Shown in pieces: positions 1-60,897 of a DNA stretch of 64,000 nt. The position numbers and the translations under genes are program-made. The notes under the pieces are model-generated. The model was not told the origin of the DNA. It was given only the letters and a program-made list of their open reading frames with translations, and ran no database searches. The stretch's first letter is position 1; each line of letters begins with the position of its first letter. Source of the stretch: Streptomyces scopuliridis RB72 (GTDB taxonomy: Bacteria > Actinomycetota > Actinomycetes > Streptomycetales > Streptomycetaceae); assembly GCF_000718095.1 (NCBI RefSeq), contig NZ_JOEI01000022.1, positions 30,875-94,874 of the forward strand, in the 5' to 3' direction.

Positions 1-423
1 GACCAGAGCAGCATCGCCCGGTGTATGGAACTGGCCCTGAACAACGCCGGTGTGAAGCCGGCCGAGGTCGACCTGATCTCCGCGCACGGAACCGGGACCA
101 AGGCCAACGACGTCACCGAGACCCGTGCTGTCCGCGACGTCTACGGTGCGGCGGCGCCGCGTACCGTCTCGCTCAAGTCCATGCTCGGCCACACCATGGG
201 CGCCGCCAGCGCGCTCGCGGCGATCGCCTGTGCGCTCGCGATCGTGGGCGAGTTCATCCCACCGACCATCAACCACCGGGAGACCGATCCCGAGTGCGAG
301 ATCGACTGCGTGCCCAACCACGCGGTCGACGCGCCGCTGAGGATCGTGCAGAACAACGGAATGGCCTTCGGCGGCAACAACGCCGTGGTGATCCTCTCCA
401 AGTACGAGGAGCAGGCGTCATGA
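1..423 (+). CDS. Type II beta-ketoacyl synthase (KS-alpha type), 3' part
   Basis: This is the C-terminal part (140 residues) of a ketosynthase whose start lies left of the window; reading frame 1 is open from base 1. Two His-containing KS signatures are visible: HGTGT near residue 28 and a GHT motif in KSMLGHTMGAAS near residue 66. The typical ending FGGNNAVVIL is also present. The active-site Cys would lie upstream and cannot be checked. Known family role: decarboxylative Claisen condensation of malonyl-ACP with acyl-ACP. The stop overlaps the next start (ATGA), so it is translationally coupled to a second KS gene, as in KS/CLF pairs of type II polyketide synthases. I infer that it elongates the polyene chain that becomes the cinnamoyl cap. 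The KS assignment is firm; its partner is inferred. Confidence 0.93.
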   Translation, partial: DQSSIARCMELALNNAGVKPAEVDLISAHGTGTKANDVTETRAVRDVYGAAAPRTVSLKSMLGHTMGAASALAAIACALAIVGEFIPPTINHRETDPECEIDCVPNHAVDAPLRIVQNNGMAFGGNNAVVILSKYEEQAS

Positions 424-1556
424 GCTGGCCCATCACCGGTATCGGCGCGCTCGCGAGCATCGGCCGCGACCCGGACGAGCTGTTCGAGAGCCTGTGCGGC
501 GGTCGCAGCGGACTCGCTCCGCTCCGCGGCTTCGACTCGGCGAAGTTCAAGGCCGGCCACCTCTTCGAGATCGACGACCGGCCGGCGCCTGGGGCGGACG
601 TGCCGGGCCGGGCGACCCGGTTCCTGCTCGACGCGGTCGGCCAGGCGGCCCGCGACGCCGGACTCGGCGAGGACCTCAGCGACGTGCCGGTGCTGATCGG
701 CACCGGTCTGCGGGAGCTGCGCTCGCTGGAACTGTGGTGGCGCGACGGTGCCGAGTTCGCGGCGGAGCGGATGCACTTCGGCACCGCGCTGCGCGAGCGG
801 TTCGGCGCGGTGAACACGCACACGTTCTCCAACGCCTGCTCCGCCTCGCTGTACGCACTCGCGCTCGCCGTCGACCAGTTGGAGTCCGGTGCGGCGGAGC
901 ACGTGATCGTGGCGGGCGCCGACTCGATCACCGAGAGCATGTTCGGCCTGACCGATGCCTTCCAACTGCAGCCGCCCGGCCGGCTGAGACCCTTCGACGT
1001 CAACCGCAAGGGCACCATCCTCGGAGAGGGCGCGGGCGCGATCGTGCTGAGCCGCGGGGCGGACGGCCACCGCAGGATCTACGGCCGGGTGCGCTCGGTC
1101 GGCGTCAACTGCGACGCGTACCACACCACCGCGCCCGACCGGGCCGGGGTGGCCGCCGCCATCAGGCAGGCGCACGAGCGTGCCGGGGTGAAGCCGGGGA
1201 ACGTGGACCTGGTCATGCTGCACGGCACCGGTACCCCGCTCAATGACGAGGTCGAGGTCCGGGCCATGTGCGACGTCTTCGGCGAGCACGCGAAAGTACC
1301 GCTGGTGACCGCCATCAAGTCGATGACCGGGCACACCGCCGGGTCGGCCGGGGTGCTGAGCGTCATCACAGCCCTGCAGGCCATGTCGACCGGACGGATC
1401 CCGCCGGTGACCGAGCTCGACGAGCCCACCGAGGAGGTGCGGGCGCTGAGGCTGGTGCACACCACCGCGGCCACCGGACATATCGATGTGGCCCAGATCA
1501 ACGGTTTCGGCTTCGGTGGGCTGAACGCGGTTGCCATCGTGGAGGCGGTCCGATGA
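420..1556 (+). CDS. Type II beta-ketoacyl synthase with intact Cys-His-His triad
   Basis: A 378-residue ketosynthase. The start is the ATG inside the ATGA overlap with the preceding KS gene. The nucleophile is Cys140 in NACSAS. The catalytic histidines are His268 in HGTGT and His305 in GHTAGS, followed by a terminal FGFGGLNAV motif. In classical type II sets the second gene of such a pair is a chain-length factor that lacks the Cys. Here the triad is complete, so this protein could condense chains itself. It is somewhat shorter than typical KS-alpha subunits (about 420 residues). Neighbours are a KS upstream and a Cys-less KS-like gene downstream, each with a 4-base overlap, which suggests co-translated subunits of one complex. 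Inferred role: chain extension in cinnamoyl-chain assembly. Confidence 0.92.
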   Translation: MSWPITGIGALASIGRDPDELFESLCGGRSGLAPLRGFDSAKFKAGHLFEIDDRPAPGADVPGRATRFLLDAVGQAARDAGLGEDLSDVPVLIGTGLRELRSLELWWRDGAEFAAERMHFGTALRERFGAVNTHTFSNACSASLYALALAVDQLESGAAEHVIVAGADSITESMFGLTDAFQLQPPGRLRPFDVNRKGTILGEGAGAIVLSRGADGHRRIYGRVRSVGVNCDAYHTTAPDRAGVAAAIRQAHERAGVKPGNVDLVMLHGTGTPLNDEVEVRAMCDVFGEHAKVPLVTAIKSMTGHTAGSAGVLSVITALQAMSTGRIPPVTELDEPTEEVRALRLVHTTAATGHIDVAQINGFGFGGLNAVAIVEAVR

Positions 1557-2515
1557 GTGAGTTCGCGCAGATCGTGGTGAGCGGTGTCGGGCCGGCCCTG
1601 CCCGGCGTGGCAGGTGCGGGGGACCTGGTGACCGGGCCGGCCCCCTCGGCGGAGCCCGTCGACCCGGCCGTCCTTCTCGGCAAGAAGGGCCTGAAGTACA
1701 AGGACCGCGCCACCCGGCTCGGACTGAGCGCGGCCCTCGCCGGGCTGCGCGACGCCGGGCTGCGGGACGAGGACGGTCCCCCGGCCGTCGGTGACCGCGT
1801 CGGTGTGGTGGTGGCCTGCAACTACGGCAATGTCGAGACCATCTGCCGGGTGGTCACCACCATCGCGGCGGAGACGACGCGCGGCACCAGCCCGATGGAC
1901 AGCCCCAACGCCTCCAGCAACATCATCGCCTCCGAGATCGCCATCCGGTTCGGATTGCGCGGCCCGAACCTGACCGTGTGCAACGGCGACGCCTCCGGGC
2001 TGGACGCGCTGCACTGGGCGGCGAGCATGCTGCGAGCGGGGCGGGCCGAGCAGATTCTGGTCGTCGGGGTCGAGCCGGACCATGAGACGGTGCGCAAGCT
2101 CGTCGGCGCCGACCGGATCGTGGACGGGGCCGTCGCGGTCGTCCTGGAGCGGGCGGAGACCGCCCGGGCGCGTGGCGCCAGGGTCGGCGCCCGGCTGGGT
2201 GGCTACGCGCGCGCCGGCGGGGTCGAGGAGTGCGCCCGTCGGCTCGGCTGTCTCAGCCCGGACACCCCGGGCGGCTGGTACGTTCCGGAAGTCGTCGGCG
2301 ACACCGAACTGCCCGCCGGACTGCTCGCCGGCGTTCCCCGGCACGCGATGCCCGACGTCTGGGGCTCGCTCTCCGGTGCGCTGGGAGTCGTGCAGTGCGC
2401 CGCCGCGGTCGCCCGGTTCGACGCGGGAGAGGCGGGCCCGTTCTACGCCCTGGCCGGCCGTGAGGACGACGGAGTCGCCGGACTCCTCCTGCTCGCCCCT
2501 GGAGACCCTCGGTGA
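1553..2515 (+). CDS. Ketosynthase-like protein lacking the active-site Cys (CLF-like?)
   Basis: A 320-residue protein of the thiolase/ketosynthase fold, short for the family. Its start lies in an ATGA overlap with the upstream KS. The region aligning with the KS nucleophile reads CNGDASGLDALHWA, so Asp stands where NACSAS of the neighbouring KS has Cys. No HGTGT or GHT histidine motif is visible. It should not catalyse condensation. By analogy with chain-length factors it may dimerise with one of the KS subunits and shape the chain tunnel or prime it; this is inference. The 3' end overlaps a GTG-started hydrolase gene. A divergent function outside condensation cannot be excluded. Confidence 0.8.
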   Translation: MSEFAQIVVSGVGPALPGVAGAGDLVTGPAPSAEPVDPAVLLGKKGLKYKDRATRLGLSAALAGLRDAGLRDEDGPPAVGDRVGVVVACNYGNVETICRVVTTIAAETTRGTSPMDSPNASSNIIASEIAIRFGLRGPNLTVCNGDASGLDALHWAASMLRAGRAEQILVVGVEPDHETVRKLVGADRIVDGAVAVVLERAETARARGARVGARLGGYARAGGVEECARRLGCLSPDTPGGWYVPEVVGDTELPAGLLAGVPRHAMPDVWGSLSGALGVVQCAAAVARFDAGEAGPFYALAGREDDGVAGLLLLAPGDPR

Positions 2516-3375
2516 GTCCCGACCGGCCGGATTCGGTGGACGCGCCTCGCGGCGCGGCGTGCACGGTGCGCCACAGGCGGCCCACGGAAGGCCCGCGGGC
2601 GCTTCTGCTGCACGGCCTGGCCAACAGCCCCTCGGTCTGGGAGCCGTTGGCCGGGAGCGATGCCGGCGGCTCGGACTTGTGGACCGCCGAACTGCCCTGG
2701 AGCGGCGGGCAGCCGCCGGACTGGGCCTACGGGCCGGACGCCGGCTGGGCGATCGCGGACGCGCTCGACCAGGTCCCCGGCGGCGTCGGCCTCGTGGTCG
2801 CGCACTCCTTCTCCGCAGTGCTGCTGCTGAATCTGCTCAGCGACGAACTCGCCCGGGGCCGCGACCCGTTCGCGCGCTACGGCATCGACGCCCTGGTGCT
2901 CGTCTCCCCGTTCTACCGGCGCGATCCGGAGTGCTTCGAGTACGACGTCGTCGGCGAGTTGCTGGACAGCTTCCGCAGCACGATGGACGAGGGGATCCGG
3001 GTGATGGCCGGTCCCCGGCTCGATCCCTCGCTGCGCCACGACATGGCGCGGCGGGTCTGCGAACGGGTCGGCCCCTACGGCTACCTGAGCTTCTTCCGCA
3101 GCTACCTGCGCACGCCCTGGCTGCGCACCGATCTGATCACCGTTCCCACCCTGGTGATCAGCGGGGAAGGCGACGCCATCGCCCGCTCCGCCGAGAGCAT
3201 GGCGCTCACCGCCGACCTTCCCGACGCACGCTGCCGGCTCATCGCCGGCGCCGGGCACTTCCCGATGGTGGAGCAGGTGGATGCCTTCTCCGCCGCCCTG
3301 GGCGAGTTCGCCCGTTCGATCAGCGGGCCGAACCAGCAGTCGCCGACCAAGCCGCTCGACCTACGAGGAGCCTGA
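2512..3375 (+). CDS. Alpha/beta-hydrolase
   Basis: A 287-residue alpha/beta-hydrolase starting at the GTG of a GTGA overlap. The oxyanion-hole segment LLLHGLA lies near residue 31. The nucleophile elbow is AHSFS with Ser99, a variant of GxSxG with Ala first and Ser last. The acid is probably Asp221 in SGEGDAIA and the base His249 in GAGHFP. No signal peptide is present. In this position it could be an editing or release thioesterase for acyl-ACP intermediates, or could help hand the finished acyl chain to the NRPS; neither can be read from sequence. Coupling to the KS-like genes ties it to acyl chain formation. Confidence 0.82.
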   Translation: MSPDRPDSVDAPRGAACTVRHRRPTEGPRALLLHGLANSPSVWEPLAGSDAGGSDLWTAELPWSGGQPPDWAYGPDAGWAIADALDQVPGGVGLVVAHSFSAVLLLNLLSDELARGRDPFARYGIDALVLVSPFYRRDPECFEYDVVGELLDSFRSTMDEGIRVMAGPRLDPSLRHDMARRVCERVGPYGYLSFFRSYLRTPWLRTDLITVPTLVISGEGDAIARSAESMALTADLPDARCRLIAGAGHFPMVEQVDAFSAALGEFARSISGPNQQSPTKPLDLRGA

Positions 3376-3380
3376 GCACG

Positions 3381-4421
3381 ATGACGTCACCCATCAGCCA
3401 CACCCCGGAGCTCACCGAACAGGCGCTGAACGACTTCTTCGACGTCACCAGCAACTTCACGCTGCGCCCGTCCTACGAGGGCGGCAATATCAGCACCACC
3501 ATCGGGTTCAAGCAGGTGCACTACCTCATCGAGGCCGCCGTCCTGGAGCACTTCCGCGCCGCCGGCCTGGGGGCCACCACCCTTTACGTCGAGTACGGCG
3601 TCGGGCTCGACGTGGTCTCCGTGGACACCCGGCTGCACACCGTCCTCATGCTGGACGACGCCGTCGCCGTCGAGGTCAAGCCGGCCACCAGGGACGCCGA
3701 CACCCGGCTGCGGTTCAGGATAACCGCGACCGTGCAGCGCGACGGCGCTCCCCGCAAGGCGGTCACCACCACGTTCGAGGTCGCGCTGCGGGCGATCGAG
3801 CACGTGGAGAACTCGAAGCCGGTTCCGGGGCGCCTGACCCGTTTCGTGGTCCCGCGACTGGGCCGGGCGACGCCGAGGAAGATCGCCGCGGTGCCGGTGG
3901 ACAACATCGACCTGTCCGCGCAGCGCGGCGTCACCACGCGCTCCGGCGACCCGGTGCTGGCCGAGATCATCGGCGACGACAACGCCTTCGGCTGGAAGTG
4001 GCGGGTGCCCTACTTCTACTGCCACTTCACCAGCCATATGCAGATGTCCGGCTTCCTGAGGCAGATGGAGGAGGTGCTGCATCTGTTCGTCGCGGACCGG
4101 GGCATCGCCATCCGCCGCATGCTCGACGAGCGCAGCTGGATCCCGGTGGTGACCAAGTGTGACATCCGGCTCACCGACGAAGTGCGCATCGAGGACGAGC
4201 TGTACACCGTCTTCACGATCGAGGACGTCTTCAAGGCCATCCTGTTCACCGCCCGGATGGACTGCTACGTGGTCCGCGACGGCGCGCTGTTGCAGGTCGC
4301 CACCGGGCACATCACGCACGGTTACGTCACCAAGGAGTCACCGGAGCGCGACTGGTCCCTGGTCACCTTCGACGAGGAGGTACTGGCCGCGCTGAGCGGC
4401 AAGAACCTCACCGCCAACTGA
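3381..4421 (+). CDS. Double-hotdog-fold protein, thioesterase/dehydratase-like
   Basis: A 346-residue protein starting at an ATG preceded by GAGGAG (3365-3370). Two segments look like hotdog folds. An N-terminal half begins near residue 25 with a long helix (HYLIEAAVLEHF) followed by alternating strands. The C-terminal half resembles 4HBT/acyl-CoA thioesterase proteins (TKCDIRLTDEVRIEDELYTV, then a GHITHGYV-like strand near the end). I see no clear FabZ HxxxxxxPG motif. No transmembrane or signal segment is present. It sits inside the acyl-chain operon and could act on ACP-bound polyene intermediates as a dehydratase, isomerase partner or thioesterase. Fold call moderately sure; exact function unknown. 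Confidence 0.6.
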   Translation: MTSPISHTPELTEQALNDFFDVTSNFTLRPSYEGGNISTTIGFKQVHYLIEAAVLEHFRAAGLGATTLYVEYGVGLDVVSVDTRLHTVLMLDDAVAVEVKPATRDADTRLRFRITATVQRDGAPRKAVTTTFEVALRAIEHVENSKPVPGRLTRFVVPRLGRATPRKIAAVPVDNIDLSAQRGVTTRSGDPVLAEIIGDDNAFGWKWRVPYFYCHFTSHMQMSGFLRQMEEVLHLFVADRGIAIRRMLDERSWIPVVTKCDIRLTDEVRIEDELYTVFTIEDVFKAILFTARMDCYVVRDGALLQVATGHITHGYVTKESPERDWSLVTFDEEVLAALSGKNLTAN

Positions 4422-4448
4422 CCGGCCCGGCCGGAAGGAGCTGTTGTC

Positions 4449-5552
4449 ATGAGCAGCCGCACCACAGGCGCCGTCGGGGCGCCGGTCATCACGGCATGGT
4501 CGGCCGTGTCCCCGTTCGGAATGGGCCGTTCCGCGTTCGCCGACGGACTGCACGAAGGCAGCGAGACGGCCGTCCTCATCGATCGCGACCAGTGGCGCGT
4601 ACCCGACGAGCGGGCCAGGCTGGTGCCCGACTTCAGCCCGCGCGCGGCGCTGGGCCGCAAGGGCACCCGGTCGATGGACCGGGTGACGGGCCTCGCGGTC
4701 AGCGCCGTCGGTGCTCTGCTCGCCGACGCCGAGCGCAACCGCGAGGTGGCGACCGGCGAGCGCGGGGCCATCGTCCTCGGCACCACCACCGGCAGTGTGC
4801 AGAGCATGATGGACTTCACCCGCGACTCGCTCACCGGCGAGCAGCCCTATTTCGTCGACCCGGCGCAGATGCCCAACACGGTGATGAACTGTGCCGCCGG
4901 CCAGTGCGCGATCTGGCACCGGATCAAGGGGCCGAACGCCACCATCGCCGGGGGGCGGCTGGCCGGCCTGCTCGCGCTGAACTACGCCCGCAGGCTGCTG
5001 GGCGCCGGCCGCGCCAAGGCGGTGCTGTGCGGTTCCGCGGAGGAGTACTCCGACGAGCGTGCCTGGCTTGAGTGGCATGCCAGAGGAGCGGAGGAGGCCC
5101 CGGCGCTGCTCGGAGAGGGCGCCGGCATGCTGCTGCTGGAGCCTGCGTATGGTGTCGACGCCCACCACGTGCTGGCGGAGGTGCTCGCCGTGGAGAGCGG
5201 TGTGTTCGGCGAGGGCGGGCCGGCGACGGTGCTCGGCTCCTGCCTGCGCCGCGCCATGGACCGTGCCGGGGTCGACCCGTCGCAGGTGTGGGCCGCTGCC
5301 CCGTGCGGCGCGGCAGGCTCGCTCGGCGAGCAGGAACGCGCGGTGCTCACCGAGATGTTCGGCCCGTCGGTTCTCGAAGAGCCGCGGAACACCGCGTTGT
5401 TCGGGGACGCGTCGGCCGCATCGGCGAGCCTGCAGATCGCCTCCGTGCTCGCGGTCGCCGAGCGCAGGCCCGATGTCGTCGGCCGGGTGGCGGTCGTCAC
5501 CGCGGTCGAGCGCGACGGCGGGGCCGGTTGCGCGCTGCTGCGGCTGCGCTGA
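4449..5552 (+). CDS. Second ketosynthase-like protein lacking the active-site Cys (CLF-like)
   Basis: A 367-residue ketosynthase-fold protein with its own ribosome site GGAAGGAG (4433-4440). The thiolase-type N-terminus (PVITAWSAVSPFG) and the central dimer region are recognisable. The nucleophile site reads TIAGGRLAGLLALN, with Gly in place of Cys, and the HGTGT position is replaced by AAAPCGAAG. It is therefore catalytically dead as a condensing enzyme. It resembles chain-length-factor-like partners in dissociated polyene synthases, and probably pairs with one of the two active KS subunits. With the Asp-variant protein at 1553-2515 the operon has two different inactive KS-like proteins, which is more than a classical minimal PKS needs. 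The ACP gene follows 46 bases later. Confidence 0.8.
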   Translation: MSSRTTGAVGAPVITAWSAVSPFGMGRSAFADGLHEGSETAVLIDRDQWRVPDERARLVPDFSPRAALGRKGTRSMDRVTGLAVSAVGALLADAERNREVATGERGAIVLGTTTGSVQSMMDFTRDSLTGEQPYFVDPAQMPNTVMNCAAGQCAIWHRIKGPNATIAGGRLAGLLALNYARRLLGAGRAKAVLCGSAEEYSDERAWLEWHARGAEEAPALLGEGAGMLLLEPAYGVDAHHVLAEVLAVESGVFGEGGPATVLGSCLRRAMDRAGVDPSQVWAAAPCGAAGSLGEQERAVLTEMFGPSVLEEPRNTALFGDASAASASLQIASVLAVAERRPDVVGRVAVVTAVERDGGAGCALLRLR

Positions 5553-5598: not shown

Positions 5599-5862
5599 AT
5601 GACGGCACAGCCCATCGAGACCCTGGACAAGGAAGATCTGCGGCGGACTCTGGCCGAGGTGATCGACGTCGACGCCACCGAGATCGGGGAGGCGACCGAC
5701 TTCGTGGACGAGTTGAACGTCGACTCGCTGCTCCTGCTGGAACTGGTCGTGGTGCTGGAGAAGAAGTACGGGGTCAAGTTCAGCGAGCGGGAGATGCGAA
5801 CGGCCCGCACCTTCCGTGACGCGCACGCGCTGCTGGAGCGCAAGCTGGCGGTGTCGGCATGA
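5599..5862 (+). CDS. Acyl carrier protein
   Basis: An 87-residue carrier protein with start ATG after GGAGAGAG. The phosphopantetheine attachment site is Ser43 in LNVDSLLLLELV, a good match to the DSL signature, set in the usual four-helix pattern. It is acidic, as expected for ACPs. It is the only free-standing carrier protein in the window, so it is the likely platform on which the KS, KR and dehydratases build the acyl chain and from which the first NRPS condensation domain takes the starter. The stop overlaps the start of a dehydratase gene (ATGA), which supports a common complex. Confidence 0.95.
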   Translation: MTAQPIETLDKEDLRRTLAEVIDVDATEIGEATDFVDELNVDSLLLLELVVVLEKKYGVKFSEREMRTARTFRDAHALLERKLAVSA

Positions 5863-6317
5863 CCACGTCGCCGTCCGGGGCGCAGGTCGCGGCGGGCCGC
5901 TTCGCCGCGAAGCCCACCCCGGTGGACGCGGCGATCGACGTGATCTCGGTGGCGAGTTCCGAGGCGGCCGCGGGAGGCGGCGCCGTCCTCACCGCGGTCA
6001 CCGGCGTCGCGATCGAGAAGTCGGAGCCGGTCTTCGCCGGCCACTACCCGGACTTCCCGATCTTCCCCGGTGTGTGTGTCGTCGACTGCGTCGAGCGCAG
6101 CGCGCTCGCCGTGGCCGAGCGCACCGGGATGGCCGAACCCCGCCTGGTCGCCGTGGAGTCCACCCGCTTCCTCGGTGCCGTCTATCCCGGCGATCTGCTC
6201 ACCGTGCGCCTGGAAATGCGTAACCACGAGGGCGCTGTGCGGTGCAAGGCCCTTGCGAGCACCGAGCGGGGCGACGCCGCGTCGGTGCGGCTGCGGATGT
6301 CGGGGAGAGTCGCATGA
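5859..6317 (+). CDS. FabA/FabZ-type 3-hydroxyacyl-ACP dehydratase
   Basis: A 152-residue hotdog dehydratase. The catalytic motif GHYPDFPIFPGV places His62 and the spacing PGVCVVD gives Asp76 as the acid, the FabA-type choice (FabZ enzymes have Glu). About 45 extra N-terminal residues precede the fold. The start is in an ATGA overlap with the ACP gene and the end overlaps the second dehydratase, so the two may form a heteromeric dehydratase. Reaction: loss of water from 3-hydroxyacyl-ACP to give trans-2-enoyl-ACP, here probably repeated without enoyl reduction so that a polyene forms. No enoyl reductase is seen nearby, in line with that. Confidence 0.88.
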   Translation: MTTSPSGAQVAAGRFAAKPTPVDAAIDVISVASSEAAAGGGAVLTAVTGVAIEKSEPVFAGHYPDFPIFPGVCVVDCVERSALAVAERTGMAEPRLVAVESTRFLGAVYPGDLLTVRLEMRNHEGAVRCKALASTERGDAASVRLRMSGRVA

Positions 6318-6802
6318 ACGCGGCGTACGAGGTCGAACGGCTGCTGCCGCACCGCTTTCCCCTGCTGCTCGTCGACCGGGTCCTCGACCTGGTGCCGGGT
6401 GAGAGCATCACTGCGGCCAAGGCCGTCACCCGCAACGAGCAGTGCTACCGGAGGGTCGGCGCGCACACCGCCGACGCCTGCCTGGAGTACCCGCGGGCGC
6501 TGCTGATCGAGTCGTGGGGCCAGACCGCCGGCATCCTGGCGACCTGGCGCACCCCCGGCCAGGAGCCCGACGCGCGTGAGGCGGATCGGGTGATGCTGCT
6601 CGGCGGGCTCACCGGAGTCACGTTCCACCTGCCGGTGCTGCCGGGTGACGTGCTCCACCATCGGGCCCGGCTCTCCCGCGCCCTGTCCGACACCGTGATT
6701 TTCGAGGGCGAGACCGTGTGCGACGGCGAGGTGGTGATGTCGGTCGAGCGGATGGTGATGGCTTTCCGTCCCGCCGACAGCCTTCTGCCGTCCGCCGGGT
6801 GA
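6314..6802 (+). CDS. FabZ-type 3-hydroxyacyl-ACP dehydratase, second subunit
   Basis: A 162-residue hotdog dehydratase starting in an ATGA overlap. The N-terminal signature LLPHRFPLLLVDRV is diagnostic for FabZ. Alignment by eye puts His51 and Glu66 (RALLIES) at the catalytic positions, but the usual GHFPxxPxxPG segment is altered (VGAHTADACLEYP). It may be active with shifted substrate preference, or it may serve as the structural partner of the upstream dehydratase. It acts on acyl-ACP in the cytosol. Followed after 21 bases, with a GAGGAGGAGGAA ribosome site, by the ketoreductase gene. Confidence 0.87.
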   Translation: MNAAYEVERLLPHRFPLLLVDRVLDLVPGESITAAKAVTRNEQCYRRVGAHTADACLEYPRALLIESWGQTAGILATWRTPGQEPDAREADRVMLLGGLTGVTFHLPVLPGDVLHHRARLSRALSDTVIFEGETVCDGEVVMSVERMVMAFRPADSLLPSAG

Positions 6803-13200: not shown

Positions 13201-13415
13201 GTCTGTTCGCCGAGGTCCTCGGCGTGTCGAGCGTCACGATCGACGACAACTTCTTCGACGTGGGCGGCCACTCCCTGCTGGCCACCCGGCTGGTCAGCCG
13301 GATCCGCTCGGTGTTCGGCGTGGAGCTGCAGATCCGGACGCTGTTCGAGACGCCCACCGTCGCCGCCGTGGCGGAGCGCGTCGGCTCCGCCGAGAACGCC
13401 CGTTCCGGCGTCTCC
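10230..13415 (+). other. NRPS module 1: C(starter)-A(Thr)-T
   Basis: Adenylation code DFWNVGMVHK, a near-textbook threonine code. The C domain (HHILLDG, residues 139-145) is the first in the assembly line and should acylate Thr with the cinnamoyl chain. The Thr side-chain hydroxyl is the probable nucleophile for final ring closure. Carrier Ser1015. Confidence 0.85.
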
Positions 13416-38632: not shown

Positions 38633-50364
<11,732 letters not shown>

Positions 50365-53413: not shown

Positions 53414-54388
53414 GTGGACATTGCAATCCAGGCTGAGGGGCTGCGTAAACGATACGGCGGTAAACAGGCCAAGGACGCGCTGAACGGTGTCGACCTGTCG
53501 GTGCCCGCCGGCACGATCTTCGGGCTGCTCGGCCCCAACGGTGCCGGAAAGACCACCATCGTCCGAATCCTTGCCACCTTGCTCTCCGCGGACAGCGGCG
53601 AGGCCGGCGTGGCGGGTTTCGACGTGCGTCGTCAGCCGAAGGAGGTACGGCGGCGCATCGGGCTGACCGGGCAGTACGCGGCGGTGGACGAAAGGTTGAC
53701 CGGCCGGGAGAACCTGCGCCTGATCGGAACCCTCTATCACCTCGGCCGGAGCGCCACGCGCGTCAGAGCGGACGAGTTGCTCGAACAGCTCGACCTGACC
53801 GACGCGGCCGACCGGCCGGTGAAAACCTACTCCGGCGGCATGCGACGTCGACTGGACCTCGCGGCCAGCCTGATCGCGGAGCCGCCGGTGCTGTTCCTGG
53901 ACGAGCCGACCACCGGGCTCGACCTGACGAGCCGGCTGACGCTGTGGGAGGTGATCCGCGGCCAAGTGCGTGGCGGCGCCACCGTCCTCCTCACCACCCA
54001 GTACCTCGAAGAGGCCGACCAGCTCGCGGATCGCATCGCTGTGCTGAACAACGGCGGCGTCATCGCCGAGGGCACGCCGGACGAGCTGAAGGACCGGGTG
54101 GGCGACGACCGCCTCCGGGTCACCGCGGCCTCCGCGAAGGACGTCATCGAGTTGACCAAGGTGCTGAGCCGGTTCAGCGGCGACGAGCCCCTCGTGGACG
54201 AGGAGAGGAGAACGGTCTCGGTGTCGATGACCGAAGGCGTCCGTGGCATAGCGACGGTGGCGACCGAGCTGGCCGAGGCCGGCATCCCGGTGGCCGACTT
54301 CCAGCTCAGTCGCCCGTCGATGGACGAGGTCTTCCTGTCCCTGACCGGCGACGCGCCGCAGCCGGTGGCCGAAGGAGCCGTGGCGTGA
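53414..54388 (+). CDS. ABC transporter ATP-binding protein (DrrA-type)
   Basis: A 324-residue ATPase. Walker A GPNGAGKTT is at residues 40-48, the signature YSGGM at about 139 and Walker B VLFLDEPTTGLD at about 158-169. A C-terminal extension of about 90 residues after the ATPase core is typical of DrrA-type drug exporters. GTG start chosen with GGGGTGA five bases before. It overlaps the next gene (GTGA), an ABC-2 permease. Likely role: powering export of the finished lipopeptide and so self-protection. It is the only ATPase in the window while two permease genes follow, so it may serve both. Confidence 0.94.
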   Translation: MDIAIQAEGLRKRYGGKQAKDALNGVDLSVPAGTIFGLLGPNGAGKTTIVRILATLLSADSGEAGVAGFDVRRQPKEVRRRIGLTGQYAAVDERLTGRENLRLIGTLYHLGRSATRVRADELLEQLDLTDAADRPVKTYSGGMRRRLDLAASLIAEPPVLFLDEPTTGLDLTSRLTLWEVIRGQVRGGATVLLTTQYLEEADQLADRIAVLNNGGVIAEGTPDELKDRVGDDRLRVTAASAKDVIELTKVLSRFSGDEPLVDEERRTVSVSMTEGVRGIATVATELAEAGIPVADFQLSRPSMDEVFLSLTGDAPQPVAEGAVA

Positions 54389-55173
54389 CCGAGTCCCTCA
54401 GTGATTCCCTCGCCCTGATAGGCCGCCACCTGCGGCATCTGGCCCGGGTGCCGGAGCGGCTGTTGAGCGTGACGCTGATGCCGGTGATGTACGTGATCGT
54501 CTTCGGCTTCCTGTTCGGCAGCGCCATGCAGGTCGAGGGCGGCGACTATCGCGAGTACATCATGGCCGGCATCTTCGCCCAGGTCATGCTGGCCAACCTG
54601 CAGACCACCGCGGTCGGCGTCGTCGACGACCTGCGCAACGGGCTGGTCGACCGGTTCCGTTCGCTTCCGATGTCCCGTTACGCCGTGCTGATCGGGCGCA
54701 CCGTCTCCGACCTGCTGCTCTCGTCGATCGCCGTGGTCGTGATGGCTGTGGTCGGCTATCTGATCGGCTGGCGGGTGCACACCGGCGTCGGCAACATCGT
54801 GGCCGCCTTCGGCCTCCTCCTGCTGCTGGGCCTGGGCGCCGCCTGGCTCGGCGCTCTGCTCGGCCTGTCGCTGCGCAACGTCGAAGCGGTCAGCGCGGTG
54901 ATGTCCATGGTCATGATGCCGCTCACCTTCCTCTCCAGCGCCTTCATCCCACCCAGTGGGCTGCCCGGATGGCTCCAAGCCATCACCGTCTGGAACCCGC
55001 TGTCGTCGGTCGTCGAGGCCGTGCGCCAACTGTTCGGCAACCCCTCCTCCGTCGGCGACAGCTCCTTCCCCGCACTCCACCCCGTGCCCGTCGCCATGGT
55101 TCTGGTCGCCGCGATGATCGCGCTGGCCATGCCGCTCGCCGCCCGCAGGTACCGGACTGCCTCGGCCCGGTGA
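54385..55173 (+). CDS. ABC-2 type transporter permease (DrrB-like)
   Basis: A 262-residue membrane protein with six predicted hydrophobic segments, the cytosolic loop DRFRSLPMSR typical of DrrB permeases, and the PLTFLSSAFIPPSGLPGWL motif before the last helices. GTG start in a GTGA overlap with the ATPase. Forms the membrane channel of the exporter. It is similar throughout to the second permease at 56387-57178, with the same order of motifs. Confidence 0.92.
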   Translation: MTESLSDSLALIGRHLRHLARVPERLLSVTLMPVMYVIVFGFLFGSAMQVEGGDYREYIMAGIFAQVMLANLQTTAVGVVDDLRNGLVDRFRSLPMSRYAVLIGRTVSDLLLSSIAVVVMAVVGYLIGWRVHTGVGNIVAAFGLLLLLGLGAAWLGALLGLSLRNVEAVSAVMSMVMMPLTFLSSAFIPPSGLPGWLQAITVWNPLSSVVEAVRQLFGNPSSVGDSSFPALHPVPVAMVLVAAMIALAMPLAARRYRTASAR

Positions 55174-55219: not shown

Positions 55220-56371
55220 ATGACGCCTGGCGTCAACACGTCCGCCGATCTCGAAGCGGATGACGCGCCCTCACCGGAACACAACATCCGTCCGCTCGTG
55301 GACACCGCGTTGCTGTCCGACTGGCGGGGTAGCGGCAAGGTCGTGCACTCCGCCCACCGGATCTACGAGCACCTGATCTCGCTGTGGGCACCGGGCGCCA
55401 TCGAGGCCGCGCACGACCTCGGCGTGTTCGCGAAGCTGAGCACGGGCCCCATGACCGGTGACCAGCTCGCCGAGGCGTGCCAGGCCAACCGGCGGGCCAT
55501 GCGGGTGCTGATGGACGGCCTGTACGCGTACGACATCGTCGACCGCAGCTCGACCGACGACGGCCCCGCGGTCTACCGGATGCCGGAGGAGATGCGCGAA
55601 TGCCTCCTGCCCGACGGGCTGTTCAGCCTCGTCGGCAAGATCGAATACGACCGTCAACTGGCCTGGCCCGCCTGGCGGAACCTCGCGGACGCGGTGCGCC
55701 ACGACAACCGCGACGAGGTCGGCGAGCTCCAGCTCAACCAGATCAACGAGCACAACTACGCATCGCTCGTGCGCGGCATCAACTTCTGGGCGCCGCCCGT
55801 CGTCGAAGCGCTGCGCGGCGGGTTCGAGACGCTGGACTGGCCCACCGACCGGCCCGCCTCCGTGCTGGACGTCGGCTGCGGTACCGGGCTCTACAGCCAG
55901 CTTCTGCTGCGCCACTTCGGGCAGTGGCGCGCCACGGGCCTGGAAGCCCCGCACATCGCCTCGATCGCCGAGGAGCAGGCCGAGCGGCTCGGCGTCGCCG
56001 AGCGGTTCGAGGTCCAGGTGCGCGACTTCTGGACCGAGAGCTGGGGTTCCGGCCACGACCTGCTGCTCTTCGTCAACATATTCCATCTCCAGACCCCGGA
56101 GTCGGCGCGGGAACTGCTGCACAAGTCCAAGCAGGCCCTCTCGGAAAACGGCATGATCTGCATCGCCGACCACCTGGTCACCGGCGAGCAGGACGCCAAG
56201 TCGATCCAGGACCGGTTCGCGATGCTGTTCGCCGTGTCGATGCTGGCCACCGGGGGCGGCGATGCCTTCCTGGTGGACGAGTACGACGGGTGGCTGGCCG
56301 AGACGGGGCTCCGCCGACTCGCGCTTCTGGACACGCCGATGCATCGGATCTTGCTCGCCGGCCACGCCTGA
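55220..56371 (+). CDS. SAM-dependent O-methyltransferase
   Basis: A 383-residue methyltransferase with AAAGGAG before its ATG. The N-terminal helical region (about residues 40-120, with a winged-helix-like DLGVFAKLSTGPMTGDQLAE) resembles COMT-type dimerisation domains. The SAM-binding motif VLDVGCGTG is near residues 215-223. This architecture fits O-methyltransferases of antibiotic clusters. No methyltransferase domain exists in the NRPSs, so this free enzyme is the obvious candidate for O-methylating a tyrosine, at module 7 in the skyllamycin model. Whether it acts on free or carrier-bound Tyr cannot be told. Oddly, it lies between two permease genes of the same exporter family. Confidence 0.88.
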   Translation: MTPGVNTSADLEADDAPSPEHNIRPLVDTALLSDWRGSGKVVHSAHRIYEHLISLWAPGAIEAAHDLGVFAKLSTGPMTGDQLAEACQANRRAMRVLMDGLYAYDIVDRSSTDDGPAVYRMPEEMRECLLPDGLFSLVGKIEYDRQLAWPAWRNLADAVRHDNRDEVGELQLNQINEHNYASLVRGINFWAPPVVEALRGGFETLDWPTDRPASVLDVGCGTGLYSQLLLRHFGQWRATGLEAPHIASIAEEQAERLGVAERFEVQVRDFWTESWGSGHDLLLFVNIFHLQTPESARELLHKSKQALSENGMICIADHLVTGEQDAKSIQDRFAMLFAVSMLATGGGDAFLVDEYDGWLAETGLRRLALLDTPMHRILLAGHA

Positions 56372-56386: not shown

Positions 56387-57178
56387 ATGACCGAGTTCGT
56401 CAGCGACACATGTGCGATCGCCGGCCGCGACCTGCGGCATCTGCTGCGACTGCCGGAGAAGTTGATCGGCTTCACCGTGATGCCGCTCGCGATGGTCCTG
56501 GGCCTGGGGATCCTGTTCGGGGGCAGTATGCGCGTACCGGGCGGCGGGGAGTACGGCGCGTATGTGTCGGCGGGAGTGGTCACCTCGATGGCCGTCTCGA
56601 TGACCGCGCTCTCCGCGCTGGGTGTGGTCGGCGACCTGCAGGACGGCATGTTCGACCGGCTCCGCTCGCTGCCGGTCAGCCGCCTGGCCGTGCTGTGCGG
56701 ACGGGTCGCGGTGGACTCGATACTCGTGGTGGTGGCGATGGTCAGCGTGGCGTCGGCGGCCGGGATCGTCGGCTGGCCGGTGGGCGCCCGGCCGCACGCG
56801 GTGCTGGCGGGGATGGGTCTGGAGATGCTGCTGGGCATGGGCTGTTCGTGTCTGGGAATCTTCCTCGGCCTTACCTTCCGCAACGCCGAGGCGGTCATCT
56901 CCGTGGTACCGGTGTGCCTCCTGCCGGTGACCTTCCTGTCCAATGCCTTCGTGCCTCCGGACGGCCTGCCCGGCTGGCTGCGCGACGTGGTCGGCTGGAA
57001 CCCGGTGACCGCGGTGACCAGCACGGTGCGCGGCCTGCTGAGCACATCGGACGCGGCCTCGACCGCGGGCTTCTTCGGCCACCCCGCCCCGTTCGCGCTT
57101 GCGTTCTGCCTGGTGTTGATCGCTCTGGCCGCTCCGGCGGCGACGCGGGCCTACGATCGCGCGGGAGCCGCACGCTGA
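56387..57178 (+). CDS. ABC-2 type transporter permease, second copy
   Basis: A 263-residue permease with six hydrophobic segments. It has the DRLRSLPVSR loop and the PVTFLSNAFVPPDGLPGWL segment, both nearly the same as in the permease at 54385-55173. ATG start 15 bases after the methyltransferase stop. No ATPase gene accompanies it, so it most likely pairs with the ATPase at 53414-54388, giving either a heteromeric exporter or two exporters sharing one motor. It probably arose by duplication. Confidence 0.91.
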   Translation: MTEFVSDTCAIAGRDLRHLLRLPEKLIGFTVMPLAMVLGLGILFGGSMRVPGGGEYGAYVSAGVVTSMAVSMTALSALGVVGDLQDGMFDRLRSLPVSRLAVLCGRVAVDSILVVVAMVSVASAAGIVGWPVGARPHAVLAGMGLEMLLGMGCSCLGIFLGLTFRNAEAVISVVPVCLLPVTFLSNAFVPPDGLPGWLRDVVGWNPVTAVTSTVRGLLSTSDAASTAGFFGHPAPFALAFCLVLIALAAPAATRAYDRAGAAR

Positions 57179-57290: not shown

Positions 57291-58361
57291 ATGGACTTCG
57301 GTCTCTTCTACTTCGCGAACGACAAGGAGGATGTCAGCGACAGATATCGGCTGCTGATAGAGGGAGCCAAATTCGCTGACACCCGCGGTTTCGCCTCGGT
57401 GTGGACTCCTGAACGCCATTTCCACGCGTTCGGCGGCCTTTACCCGAACCCGGCGGTGACCGGGGCCGCGGTGGCCGCGGTCACCGAGAGGGTCGCCGTG
57501 AGGGCCGGCAGTGTGGTGGCCCCGCTGCACCACCCGGTGCGCATCGCGGAGGAGTGGTCCATCGTGGACAACCTCTCCAAGGGCAGGGTGGGCATCGCGT
57601 TCGCGTCCGGCTGGCACGCCGCCGACTTCGTGCTGCGCCCGGAGGGCTACCCCACCCGCAGGTCCGGGCTGATCGACACGGTGACGTCGATCCGCAGCCT
57701 GTGGCGGCAGGAACCCGCGTCGTTCGTCGACGGCGCGGGCGAGACCGTCGACGTGACGGTCTTCCCGCCCCCCGTGCAGTCGGAGCTGCCGGTCTGGCTG
57801 ACCAGCGCGGGCAACCCGCAGACCTTCCGGGACGCGGGCGAGATGGGCGCGGGCGTGCTGACTCATCTGCTGGGCCAGGGCGTCGACGTACTGGAGAAGC
57901 GGATCGGCGAGTACCGGCAGTCCTTCCGTGACCACCACGACGAGACCGAGGGCGACGGACACGTCGCACTCATGCTGCACACCTTCATCGGCCCGGACAG
58001 GGAGAAGGTCAAGGAGACGGTCCGCGAGCCGTTCAGCAAGTACCTGGCCAGCTCCTTCGACCTGGTCATCCATGCCGCCAAGGCTGCGGGCGCGAACGCG
58101 GTCGCACTGGATCTCAAAGAGATGAGCCCGGCGGACATCGACTTCATGGTCGGCCAGGCGTTCGACCGCTACTTCGAGACCAGCGGCCTGTTCGGCACGG
58201 TCCAGGACGGCCTGCGGATGTGTGAGGCCCTGTACGACATCGGCGTGGACGAGATCGCCTGCCTGATCGACTTCGGTGTGGAAACCGACGAGGTACTGGC
58301 CGGCCTGGTCCATCTCGACCAGCTCAGGCAGGCGTGGCGGGAACGCGAACCGGCTCGATGA
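57291..58361 (+). CDS. sky39: Luciferase-like flavin monooxygenase (MupA/Atu3640-type)
   Basis: A 356-residue LLM-class protein. The start ATG at 57291 has AGGAGG four bases before and gives MDFGLFYFAND, the normal family start; an upstream in-frame TTG is ignored. The TIM-barrel features SVWTPERHFHAFGGLYPNP and GIAFASGWHAADF match the luciferase-like monooxygenases often found in NRPS/PKS clusters. These use reduced FMN from a partner reductase, which is encoded by the next gene. In skyllamycin biosynthesis an FMN-dependent enzyme in this position is, as I recall, needed for the alpha-hydroxyglycine unit. Module 9 here activates Gly, so the same job is plausible. Substrate not provable from sequence. 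Confidence 0.86.
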   Translation: MDFGLFYFANDKEDVSDRYRLLIEGAKFADTRGFASVWTPERHFHAFGGLYPNPAVTGAAVAAVTERVAVRAGSVVAPLHHPVRIAEEWSIVDNLSKGRVGIAFASGWHAADFVLRPEGYPTRRSGLIDTVTSIRSLWRQEPASFVDGAGETVDVTVFPPPVQSELPVWLTSAGNPQTFRDAGEMGAGVLTHLLGQGVDVLEKRIGEYRQSFRDHHDETEGDGHVALMLHTFIGPDREKVKETVREPFSKYLASSFDLVIHAAKAAGANAVALDLKEMSPADIDFMVGQAFDRYFETSGLFGTVQDGLRMCEALYDIGVDEIACLIDFGVETDEVLAGLVHLDQLRQAWREREPAR

Positions 58362-58397
58362 CCGGGACGCGGACATCAAGGCGCGGCGAGGAAGGGA

Positions 58398-58961
58398 ATG
58401 GATGTGGAGCCGGATCCGGTCGGCAACGAGGCGTATCGCGCGTTCATGGGTTCCTTCCCGACCGGCGTGTCTGTCGTCACCACGGTCGATGAGGCCGGAC
58501 GGCCTCGCGGAATGACATGCTCCTCCCTGTCGAGCGTCAGCCTTGACCCGCCCATCCTGTCCGTCTGCCTCTCGGTGACCAGCGGCACGCTCAGCGCGTT
58601 GCGCGCCCACGGCTTCTTCGGGGTCAACCTGCTGGGCGCCCAGGGAAGTTCGGTCGCCCGCCACTTCGCCGACTCCACGCTGAGCCACTTCGAGCGGCTG
58701 CCGTGGCGGCCGGCCGCCGGCACCGGAATACCGCGGCTCGACGGAGACACCATCGGCTTCGCCGCGTGCCGGGTGACGGACACCAAGCTCGTCGGCGACC
58801 ATGTCGTGGTCTTCGGTGTGGTCCTCGGCGCCGACTGCGGCGTCGGCGTGCCGCTGCTTTACGGTCGCCGGCAGTTCGCCGCCTGGCCCGGAGCCGCCAA
58901 GGGTGACGTGGCCGGTCAGCGTGCCGGTCTCGACGGTGCGACCGCGGAACGGCCGGCGTGA
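58398..58961 (+). CDS. Flavin reductase family protein
   Basis: A 187-residue protein with the FMN-binding split-barrel pattern of HpaC/flavin-reductase-domain proteins: FMGSFPTGVSVVTT at the start, MTCSSLSSVSLDPPILSVC in the middle and FGVNLLGAQG after it. GAGGAAGGG lies just before the ATG. It should reduce FMN with NAD(P)H and deliver it to the adjacent luciferase-like monooxygenase, the only two-component flavin oxygenase in the window. It ends 46 bases from the stop of the convergent glutamate mutase gene. Confidence 0.9.
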   Translation: MDVEPDPVGNEAYRAFMGSFPTGVSVVTTVDEAGRPRGMTCSSLSSVSLDPPILSVCLSVTSGTLSALRAHGFFGVNLLGAQGSSVARHFADSTLSHFERLPWRPAAGTGIPRLDGDTIGFAACRVTDTKLVGDHVVVFGVVLGADCGVGVPLLYGRRQFAAWPGAAKGDVAGQRAGLDGATAERPA

Positions 58962-59007
58962 CGGGCACGTTCACGTCATCATGGCCGTCACCTGGGCACA
59001 GGGGCCG

Positions 59008-60330
59008 TCACCGCGGGTCGGAGCCCGCGACCGCGGCGGCGGCGCGGTCCGCGCGTGCATCCCGGTCGAACTTCCGCCGTACATAGGAGAGATCAGCCAG
59101 CAGACCCGCGGCGGTCACCTCGTGGCGCCGCCCCGTCCGGACCAGGTGCGCCAGTGGCAGCGCTCCGGTCTCCGCCCAGCACAGCCGGCCTTCCTCGTCC
59201 AGCCGGCTGCGGGTACGGCCCCGGTTGTCAGGATGCACGCAGTACGGGATGTCGAGGTAGCCGCGTTCGAACGCCAGCAGCAGAGCGCGAGCCGGATCGG
59301 AGTGCAGGTTCAGCACGCCGTCGATCAGCGCCAGCGCTTCGGCGTACGTCTGCGAATCCGTACCTGGATCGCGCGCGGTCGTCGGGCACGCCTCGGCCGT
59401 CCGTGCCGCGTACTCCAGGGCCGCCACGTTCTCCGCGACGGTGGGGATCCGCCGGGACTCCGCGACGGTCTTGACGATGAGGCGTTCCGCGCCCGTCCGC
59501 AGGGCGAGTTGGGTGGCGTGGCCGAGCAGCTGGTACGCGCCGGCCTCGGTGACCGGGTACGCCCCCATGTACGTGTAGACGACCGTGTGCCAGTCCACAT
59601 CGGGCAGCAGCGCCTCGCACAGCCGGCGCAGTGCGAACACCGCCTCGGTGTCCTGTCCGGCATGGGTCTGCTGGGCGTAGCTCACCGAGATACTGCGGCA
59701 TCCGTACGCGCGGAAGAACAGCGCCTCCAGCACGCTCAGCGCCACCAACTGGCTCGGCGGGCAGAGCTGGCCCATCATGCAGCCGCCGAAGGTCTCCAGG
59801 TGTGGTTCGGCGCCCAGGTCACGCAGGTGCGAGAACAGTTCGGTGCACTGCCGCCAGGCCGCGATCGACTCGGCCAGCGGGGTGCGCCCGTAGGGAAGGC
59901 AGTAGGACACCGGACCGCCCTCGGTCGCGTCCAGGCCCAGCGTGATCAGTTTGCTGAAGATGTGCCGGGGGAGCGAGGACCCGTGCCGTACCTGCACGGG
60001 GAAGCCGGTGTCCCGGACGCCGGCCAGTACCGCCCGCGTCGTCGAGTCGGGGTGACTGGCGATCGGATATCCGTTGAGCGGCAGGTTCTCGCGCAGGGCG
60101 TGCTCGGCCGATGCCAGGTCGCCCACCCTGGTGTAGCTGTCCAGGGTCAGTGTGCCGCTGGTGTGCGCTCTCGCCGCCTTGGTGGCGGCCAGACCCGCTC
60201 GCATCTGCGTCGGATCGCTGAAACCCATCCGCGGCTGCACCACGAGGGCGCCGGCGTCCGCCCGGGCACGGACGAACGCGCCGAACCCCGGCTGTGTGTG
60301 ACACGGGCGGCTCGGCACAAGGGCGGTCAC
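59008..60330 (-). CDS. sky41: Glutamate mutase (methylaspartate mutase) epsilon/catalytic subunit
   Basis: A 440-residue protein, GTG start at 60330 overlapping the stop of the small subunit gene (GTGA), which argues against the longer reading to 60630. Recognisable epsilon-subunit segments include LVVQPRMGFSDPTQMRAGL near the N-terminus, TTRAVLAG, VRHGSSLPRHIF, FGGCMMGQLCPPSQLVALS and SISVSYAQQTHAGQD. It is slightly shorter than catabolic MutE (about 480). With the B12-binding small subunit it should interconvert L-glutamate and (2S,3S)-3-methylaspartate by a radical carbon-skeleton rearrangement. The product is the natural substrate for NRPS module 3, whose code is of the Asp type. The symbol is given by position in the recalled skyllamycin order. 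Confidence 0.88.
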   Translation of the reverse strand: MTALVPSRPCHTQPGFGAFVRARADAGALVVQPRMGFSDPTQMRAGLAATKAARAHTSGTLTLDSYTRVGDLASAEHALRENLPLNGYPIASHPDSTTRAVLAGVRDTGFPVQVRHGSSLPRHIFSKLITLGLDATEGGPVSYCLPYGRTPLAESIAAWRQCTELFSHLRDLGAEPHLETFGGCMMGQLCPPSQLVALSVLEALFFRAYGCRSISVSYAQQTHAGQDTEAVFALRRLCEALLPDVDWHTVVYTYMGAYPVTEAGAYQLLGHATQLALRTGAERLIVKTVAESRRIPTVAENVAALEYAARTAEACPTTARDPGTDSQTYAEALALIDGVLNLHSDPARALLLAFERGYLDIPYCVHPDNRGRTRSRLDEEGRLCWAETGALPLAHLVRTGRRHEVTAAGLLADLSYVRRKFDRDARADRAAAAVAGSDPR

Positions 60331-60827
60331 TCGGTTCTCCCCACGCACAAGGCCCCCCGCGGGGCGGTCGGGAGCGAGGCGACGAACGCCGCGAACTCGG
60401 CCGTGCCCGACACCTGGTCGGGGAAGACGGCGTCGAAGCCGGCGCCCAGCAGTTCCTGCGCGTGCCGGCCCGGATCCTCGTCGGACACCGTGAGCTTGCC
60501 GCCGATCACCATCGGAGTGGCGGCCAGTTCCGCGCAGTCGCGCAGCCGGGCGACCACCCGCAGGCCGTCGGTGCAGCCGTGCCCGTTGACACTGCCGAGG
60601 GCCACCAGCACGGGGTCGATCCTGCGGCATTCGTCGACCAGCATGTCATCCGGTACGCAGGGCCCGAGGTTGACCACGTGGTAGCCGAGTTCCTCGATGA
60701 CGAGCTGGAGGTAGACCAGGTTCCAGGTGTGTGCGTCACTCGCCAGCCCCGACACCACGACTGTGCCACGGGACCGCATCGCGGACCGCGCGCTCCCCGC
60801 GACGACTTCGATCTCCTGCTGTGCCAC
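60327..60827 (-). CDS. sky42: Glutamate mutase sigma (B12-binding) subunit
   Basis: A 166-residue cobalamin-binding domain protein. GTG start with AAGGAG five bases before. His33 in SDAHTWN is the expected cobalt ligand of the DxHxxG motif, with Asn36 where Gly is usual. The downstream GG pair is at residues 109-110 (MVIGGKL) and the intermediate SxxGHG-like loop is GSVNGHG. It works as the coenzyme carrier for the epsilon subunit, whose gene overlaps its stop. The pair is transcribed against the rest of the cluster. Symbol by position in the recalled skyllamycin order. Confidence 0.88.
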   Translation of the reverse strand: MAQQEIEVVAGSARSAMRSRGTVVVSGLASDAHTWNLVYLQLVIEELGYHVVNLGPCVPDDMLVDECRRIDPVLVALGSVNGHGCTDGLRVVARLRDCAELAATPMVIGGKLTVSDEDPGRHAQELLGAGFDAVFPDQVSGTAEFAAFVASLPTAPRGALCVGRTE

Positions 60828-60897
60828 GGTTCTCCTTTTCCGTAGATTTGGTGAAGTCGCCCCGGGACCGAGGTGGTCATGCGCAGCCGAGCGGCGC

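Follow-up and report, generated by a model that had tools for sequence, protein, structure and literature searches.

A skyllamycin-type gene cluster of Streptomyces scopuliridis RB72 accompanied by a second cytochrome P450, P450sky2

The stretch analysed here, the window, comprises 64,000 bases (30875-94874) of contig NZ_JOEI01000022.1 in the 8.24 Mb, 117-contig assembly of Streptomyces scopuliridis RB72; its last base, 64000, is also the end of the contig. It very probably holds a skyllamycin biosynthetic cluster, from a Streptomyces lineage that is close to the published producers yet separate from them, with skyllamycin A as the predicted core of the product. Beside it lies the gene of a second cytochrome P450, P450sky2, which probably adds one more oxidation. 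Skyllamycins are described as inhibitors of platelet-derived growth factor (PDGF) signalling and of biofilms (PMC13194151), and the chemistry of their pathway is unusual: one P450 makes three carrier-bound beta-hydroxylations, an alpha-hydroxyglycine is formed, and the thioesterase doubles as an epimerase. As a compound, the peptide is already known. The interest lies mainly in P450sky2 and in a changed thioesterase residue, neither of which is unique to this strain; a diverged natural version with both lends itself to comparisons that show which residues are important, and is likely to yield a new congener.

The cluster and its closest relatives

Genes were called across the entire contig with a codon-usage gene model and domains were assigned by Pfam scans; an Rfam search over the window gave no match. 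The contig was compared with stretches from three relatives (90, 100 and 120 kb): S. anulatus JCM 4721 and Streptomyces sp. CB01373, both reached through related loci, and genome G383, found among 392 searched genomes of the genus. A chain of 27 genes, running from an acyl carrier protein (ACP) gene upstream of the window to glutamate mutase, is collinear and on the same strands in all three (27 of 27), which excludes chance, and the 27 are 65-92% identical to their counterparts. In each relative the shared order ends at glutamate mutase, the 3′ border of the cluster; judged by this order, the cluster is complete before the contig ends. A preliminary description of the window had placed the cluster at 1..60830. 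Its 3′ end stands, but its start at base 1 does not, as the 5′ part of the cluster extends up to 4.8 kb further on the same contig (negative positions below count bases before the window).

S. anulatus JCM 4721 served as a stand-in for Streptomyces sp. Acta 2897 in the comparison of the nonribosomal peptide synthetases (NRPSs). Three of its proteins are nearly identical to solved skyllamycin proteins, namely P450sky (PDB 4l0e, 99.05%), the peptidyl carrier protein PCP7sky (4pwv, 97.4% over 77 residues) and the thioesterase Skyxy-TE (7crn, 99.6%). Therefore, JCM 4721 can in practice be equated with the published system, to which the window is a diverged sister. A further S. anulatus strain is the source of skyllamycins A-E (PMC10138632). 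NRPSs 1, 2 and 3 of the window are 77, 81 and 81% identical to those of S. anulatus, above the figure of about 60% that the preliminary description had named as a floor for the family match; against CB01373 the values are 82, 85 and 85%, and against G383 83, 85 and 86%. When the first ketosynthase is counted as Sky17, the numbers Sky26, Sky27, Sky32 and Sky39 fall on the ketoreductase, the isomerase, the P450 and the luciferase-like gene.

Through S. anulatus JCM 4721, the window thus shares with the Acta 2897 sky cluster the same 27 genes in the same order, the 4+4+3 module layout, equivalent adenylation (A) domain codes, P450sky, the thioesterase, the glycine hydroxylase and glutamate mutase. 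Other parts expected of a skyllamycin cluster are likewise there: a type II polyene polyketide synthase (PKS) set with isomerase and desaturase, a Sky39-type glycine alpha-hydroxylase and glutamate mutase. The match to the skyllamycin family given in the preliminary description is therefore borne out by collinearity, module layout, A codes and orthology. Differences from the S. anulatus version are the NRPS divergence (77-81%), the addition of P450sky2 and a ferredoxin, and Ile in place of Phe202 in the thioesterase. The nearest group consists of the sky-type clusters of CB01373, G383, S. nodosus (P0023/P0244/P0127) and S. scopuliridis (P0005/P0241), the last with an NRPS 2 region 96% identical to that of the window. 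A paper on S. nodosus is said to report a 'skyllamycin analogue'. Such clusters are sparse among the genomes drawn: a close P450sky (at least 87%) occurs in 3 of 392 from the genus and a close thioesterase (at least 90%) in 3 of 394 from the family, the RB72 genome being included in both counts and the two draws partly overlapping.

Peptide, acyl group and thioesterase

Gene content, gene order, domain layout, A-domain codes and orthology were read from the DNA; every chemical step proposed below is carried over from experiments on published systems or from proposals in the literature. The three NRPS genes have 4, 4 and 3 A domains, as previously described. NRPS 1 (10230..24455, +) holds modules 1-4, with codes for Thr, Ala, the 3-methylaspartate (MeAsp) position and Gly, and ends in a degenerate epimerisation (E) domain. 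NRPS 2 (24452..38632, +) holds modules 5-8, for Phe, Pro, the O-methyltyrosine (OMe-Tyr) position and the Trp position, modules 7 and 8 being assigned by orthology, and has a terminal E domain. NRPS 3 (38626..50364, +) holds modules 9-11, for Gly, Leu with an E domain, and Leu, followed by the thioesterase. The nine-residue codes were taken from a motif-anchored alignment; their amino-acid meanings were checked mainly by orthology. Eight of the 11 codes are identical to those of S. anulatus, and modules 2, 6 and 8 are each one residue off. PCP7 is 82% identical to PCP7sky (4pwv, 77 residues), and module 7 is the only match to PCP7sky in the window at an E-value of 1e-20.

These NRPSs would add Thr-Ala-MeAsp-Gly-Phe-Pro-(OMe)Tyr-Trp-Gly-Leu-Leu. 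E domains with an intact HHxxxDG motif follow modules 8 and 10 and would account for D-Trp8 and D-Leu10. The E-like domain that ends NRPS 1, behind module 4 and before 24455, lacks the active-site motif in all four clusters, as expected since Gly is achiral. Published skyllamycin is listed as Thr-Ala-MeAsp-Gly-OHPhe-Pro-OH(OMe)Tyr-D-Trp-OHGly-D-Leu-OH-D-Leu with a propenylcinnamoyl cap and a molecular weight of 1483.6 (PMC9864405, Table 6), and the formula that we assembled, C75H94N12O20, gives an average mass of 1483.64. The residue order in the preliminary description equals the published one, with two refinements: orthology identifies the residue left as X at module 8 as Trp, and residue 7 should be beta-hydroxylated in addition to its O-methylation. 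That description had further regarded module 8 and some codes as uncertain, and hence a new congener as possible. An altered module 8 was considered and dropped: its code, DVGMVGAIA, is one conservative residue from that of the S. anulatus D-Trp module, DVGMVGAVA, and all ten sky-type NRPS 2 proteins of one comparison carry one or the other; CB01373, read separately, has a third code, DVGMVGVIA. Accordingly, the A domains do not suggest a congener, but P450sky2, outside the window, makes one possible.

Modules 10 and 11 invite a separate remark. Their two Leu-type A domains are 72% identical in the window, where the best of the remaining module pairs reach 51-63%, and in P0242 the two Leu-type A domains of the same modules share long identical stretches within one protein, which suggests gene conversion between modules 10 and 11 in both. 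P0245, from Streptomyces sp. NPDC005925, has the Phe-type code DAWTVAAVC at module 11 in place of the Leu-type, and beta-hydroxy-Phe is predicted at position 11 of its product.

Gene calls and Pfam also confirm the P450, O-methyltransferase, two-component flavin oxygenase and glutamate mutase of the earlier account. The P450 (50389..51675, +) is the orthologue of P450sky (Sky32), 86% identical to PDB 4l0e with 842 bits, the next match scoring 310, and it keeps the interface residues W193 and L194 as counted on the printed alignment. P450sky is reported to act at modules 5, 7 and 11 (PMC5683658), and the window enzyme is predicted to be the beta-hydroxylase of these three residues, acting on their carrier domains. 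The luciferase-like monooxygenase in the Sky39 position (57291..58361, +) is 88% identical to its S. anulatus counterpart; Sky39 is named as the glycine alpha-hydroxylase (PMC9321520), and together with the flavin reductase partner (58398..58961, +) the enzyme would hydroxylate Gly9. The O-methyltransferase (55220..56371, +) presumably makes O-methyl-Tyr. The E chain (59008..60330, -) and B12-binding chain (60327..60827, -, the 3′ end of the cluster) of glutamate mutase would supply 3-methylaspartate. These last three genes and the flavin reductase were assigned by Pfam and collinearity.

For the acyl group, the 12-gene set of the preliminary description agrees with gene calls and Pfam, its first ketosynthase starting 785 bases before the window. 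This ketosynthase (402 residues, Sky17 position; start -785, 3′ part at 1..423, +) has the catalytic Cys and both His residues and is 92% identical to each of the three relatives. The second (420..1556, +) likewise keeps the catalytic Cys and His, and two chain-length-factor-like ketosynthases (1553..2515 and 4449..5552, both +) are without the Cys. Two with and two without fit the two pairs of ketosynthase and chain length factor proposed for epoxinnamide (PMC9321520). Assigned by Pfam and collinearity, and all on the + strand, are an alpha/beta hydrolase (2566..3375), a 346-residue protein with a 4HBT_2 (hotdog) domain (3381..4421), an ACP (5599..5862), two FabA-like dehydratases (5859..6317 and 6314..6802), the ketoreductase (Sky26 position, 6824..7570; name from PMC6510318) and the DsbA-fold isomerase (Sky27 position, 7604..8314). 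A flavin (FAD) desaturase, phytoene desaturase-like by matches under the NCBIfam cut-offs, closes the set (8348..10024, +). The discrete (type II) PKS enzymes would assemble a C12 polyene on the ACP; the isomerase would set a Z bond, and 6-pi ring closure and the desaturase, which presumably aromatises the closed ring, would give a 2-propenylcinnamoyl group to be loaded by NRPS module 1. A Z double bond set ahead of ring closure is the role proposed for the Sky27-type isomerase, and the whole course of polyene formation, isomerisation, 6-pi closure and desaturation is a published hypothesis (PMC6510318).

The thioesterase domain of NRPS 3 (49513..50361, +) is 86% identical to Skyxy-TE (7crn), which is reported to give residue 11 its D configuration (PMC11735501). 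It would epimerise residue 11 and close the ester (lactone) to Thr1. Ser97, Asp124, Gln125 and His254 of Skyxy-TE are all kept. Ten residues of Skyxy-TE are named as important, with Phe202 called crucial for macrocyclisation (PMC9321520); nine are kept here and the tenth, Phe202, is Ile. In seven sky-type NRPS 3 clusters (P0241-P0247), residue 202 is Ile in four, Phe in two and Leu in one. Ile202 is found in the window and in all four members of the nearest group, CB01373, G383, S. scopuliridis and S. nodosus; Phe202 in S. anulatus and P0245; and Leu202 in P0247. Since the residue varies within sky-type clusters, we do not hold the absence of Phe202 to exclude membership. Ile202 was also considered as a marker of every P450sky2-bearing cluster, and this was rejected because NPDC005925 has both Phe202 and P450sky2.

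Several points weigh against calling this a skyllamycin cluster with skyllamycin A as its product. No product is known from this strain, and the cluster may be silent; the NRPS identities were measured against the stand-in JCM 4721, not the Acta 2897 NRPSs; the extra P450sky2 may mean that the final product is not skyllamycin A itself; and the alignment puts Ile at the position called crucial for macrocyclisation. That the cluster belongs instead to another family of cinnamoyl peptides (nyuzenamide/epoxinnamide, WS9326A or kitacinnamycin) we regard as very improbable. Twelve look-alike genomes were collected by a P450sky homologue of about 62-67% or, in G560, by a skyllamycin-like thioesterase of 61%. 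One of them, the epoxinnamide-like G375, does share the ketosynthase, ketoreductase, isomerase and Sky39-like hydroxylase at 59-73%, but the stretches examined in G375 (80 kb) and in G096 (60 kb) have ten A domains and three P450s each, and in each one A-domain code which we take to be that for hydroxyphenylglycine (Hpg). The window has eleven modules, none with such a code. Moreover, sky-type thioesterases are 86-94% identical to that of the window, and those of the next group about 59-65%; the WS9326A and kitacinnamycin clusters are set apart without direct comparison.

P450sky2 and the product

The gene of the second P450 lies at -2728 to -1544 (-). Its protein is 85% identical to PDB 8fz8, an entry entitled 'Structure of cytochrome P450sky2', a title read off the structure matches of a model (mean pLDDT, the predicted local confidence score, of 86) of the S. 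nodosus protein P0127. Because 8fz8 is 99% identical to P0127, it comes from or near that lineage. A literature search for 8FZ8 found no paper on the function of P450sky2. Orthologues at 85-86% occur in CB01373, G383 and G693, and the best match in the S. anulatus genome reaches 42%. In CB01373 and G383 the gene sits between MbtH and ACP; in RB72 the MbtH gene is at -3142 to -2921 and the ACP gene, first of the 27, at -1148 to -897. P450sky2 is kept in four of the five distinct sky-type genomes examined, and the three sequences read have an intact heme motif; G001 and G629, and G002 and G118, have identical coordinates and were counted once per pair. The nearby ferredoxin gene (-3769 to -3575; L060:7105-7299) is on the + strand here, whereas in CB01373 and G383 it shares the - strand with the P450, which points to a small local inversion.

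Beyond the sky-type clusters, P450sky2 homologues (54-68%) are present in ten of the 12 look-alikes; none passed the cut-off in G125 or G003. Six carry an orthologue at 64-68%. In G099, G058, G375, G096 and G560 it lies no more than about 25 kb from the P450sky homologue or the thioesterase, and in G153 it is on a different contig from the P450sky homologue. In the other four, G363, G360, G072 and G009, a homologue of 54-55% lies about 11 kb from the P450sky homologue. Homologues of the cinnamoyl isomerase and of Sky39 were then sought in 13 genomes, the 12 look-alikes and G693. An isomerase homologue is on the contig of P450sky2 in ten of the ten look-alikes that have the P450, at 8-13 kb in G099, G058, G375, G153 and G560 and at 59-70 kb in G096, G363, G360, G072 and G009; in the sky-type G693 the distance is 9 kb. 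No isomerase homologue was found in G125 and G003 at an E-value of 1e-15, and several of the 13 genomes carry further copies elsewhere. Since the isomerase tracks P450sky2, this P450 goes with the acyl group and not with the beta-hydroxylase. The link is one-way only, because S. anulatus has the isomerase without P450sky2. A Sky39 homologue adjoins P450sky2 in G099, G058, G375, G153 and G560 (67-68%) and is not near it in the other five; a tie between P450sky2 and alpha-hydroxyglycine was rejected, since G096 has no Sky39 homologue above 44% and G363 none at an E-value of 1e-60. As an aside, G096, G363, G360, G072 and G009 appear to be one more group of probable cinnamoyl peptide clusters with an arrangement of its own: they have P450sky and P450sky2 homologues, and the isomerase lies 59-70 kb from P450sky2.

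In trees of the NRPS 3 end-piece, S. anulatus groups with NPDC005925 at 96/93 support, and at 98/93 when the thioesterase is used alone. NPDC005925 has a sky-type NRPS 3 (P0245) together with P450sky2 (P0129), the shared contig being deduced from equal record lengths and strain names. The fork joining the side of the window has support of only 84/87 and does not resolve with the thioesterase alone. Given that S. anulatus groups with a bearer of P450sky2, and that the look-alike families also have orthologues, a single loss in the S. anulatus lineage appears to be the simplest explanation; a gain by the lineage of the window was rejected as the simplest reading on account of the same grouping. 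The P450sky2 tree does not contradict a loss, though several sky-type rows in it do not resolve, its root is on one very long branch, and P0131, labelled sky-type by identity only, falls with the outgroup.

What might P450sky2 do? There is close to an even chance that the product is the skyllamycin core plus one oxygen, as a propenyl epoxide made by P450sky2, in the manner proposed for epoxinnamide. The epoxinnamide (epc) and nyuzenamide C (dml) systems are described as similar in their cinnamoyl type II PKS, P450sky homologue (about 66%) and Sky39-like hydroxylase, and as different in having ten modules, Hpg and a cross-linking P450 (PMC9321520). The window has eleven modules, and a scan of the genes between P450sky2 and the window end shows no third P450. 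Three epoxinnamide P450s are given: EpcB (66% to Sky32), EpcH (48% to TamI) and EpcF, which is proposed to epoxidise the propenyl group (PMC9321520). The three P450s of G375 and of G096 are a P450sky homologue (66 and 63%), a TamI-like enzyme (50 and 46%) and a P450sky2 orthologue (65 and 68%). In G096, the best PDB match of the TamI-like enzyme is the phenol-coupling DmlH, and that of the P450sky2 orthologue is 8fz8. EpcB and EpcH fit the P450sky homologue and the TamI-like P450, which leaves EpcF for P450sky2. The stretch of G375, which resembles both epoxinnamide and nyuzenamide C systems, also has acyl genes and a Sky39 homologue.

The company that P450sky2 keeps with the isomerase, and hence with the acyl group (ten of ten with both, G125 and G003 with neither), adds weight to the epoxide. 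On the other hand, the role of EpcF is itself a proposal, and its presumed orthology to P450sky2 comes from elimination and company, not from sequence. The acyl group can do without P450sky2, as S. anulatus has the isomerase and lacks the P450. The 60 kb of G096 are without an acyl gene or a Sky39 homologue, its isomerase being 59 kb off, so that it is no plain epoxinnamide type; of three further stretches, G363 (40 kb) has two P450s, L008 (21 kb) no P450sky2 orthologue and L009 (21 kb) only the P450sky homologue. In kitacinnamycin, moreover, Kcn27 is described as oxidising the terminal methyl instead (PMC6510318).

This last case also speaks for hydroxylation by P450sky2 at some other position, be it the terminal methyl of the cinnamoyl side chain, an aromatic ring or a peptide residue, as do the next-closest P450s of solved structure, which include TamI, PikC and DmlH and span several reactions. 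We nevertheless think it rather unlikely, because the match by elimination favours EpcF and the company with the isomerase disfavours a peptide residue. Unlikely too, and somewhat more so, is a product range of exactly skyllamycins A and B, with P450sky2 silent, redundant or acting elsewhere. All the peptide-building parts do match the S. anulatus type, but the gene is kept in most of the sky-type genomes examined, its heme motif being intact in the sequences read, and the link to the isomerase takes weight from a silent P450sky2 as it adds weight to the epoxide.

We therefore put forward, tentatively and as something short of probable, that sky-type clusters bearing P450sky2, that of the window included, make an epoxidised skyllamycin (1,2-epoxypropyl-cinnamoyl; C75H94N12O21, [M+H]+ 1499.673) whose epoxide would be set by P450sky2, and that Ile202, present in the thioesterase of many such clusters, could relate to the changed acyl group. 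If this is true, published skyllamycin would be a derived form, from a lineage that lost its epoxidase gene. A literature search for the epoxidised compound, judged by titles and covering few subscription journals, brought up only the epoxinnamide paper as relevant, and absence from print is not claimed.

Transport and neighbouring genes

Between the P450sky orthologue and the glutamate mutase genes, a stand-alone thioesterase (51672..52448, +), a DrrA-like ATP-binding cassette (ABC) transporter ATPase (53414..54388, +) and two ABC-2 permeases (54385..55173 and 56387..57178, both +) were assigned by Pfam and collinearity. A DUF3995 protein (52493..53149, -) is encoded within each of the four clusters, every time on the opposite strand, and its gene is the least conserved (65-66%).

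Past the cluster, a tannase/feruloyl-esterase-like gene (62023-63381, +) has no match in the stretches compared from the relatives. On the upstream side, gene calls and Pfam give MbtH, the ferredoxin and, at -4775 to -3870 (+), an acyltransferase, which has an 84% counterpart in S. anulatus but was not found in the stretches compared from CB01373 and G383. LuxR-type regulators, with Pfam matches just under the cut-off, also lie upstream of the cluster. Between two of them is a polyprenyl synthetase gene (L060:3946-4890, +), a 45% homologue of which is found near the start of the S. anulatus cluster.

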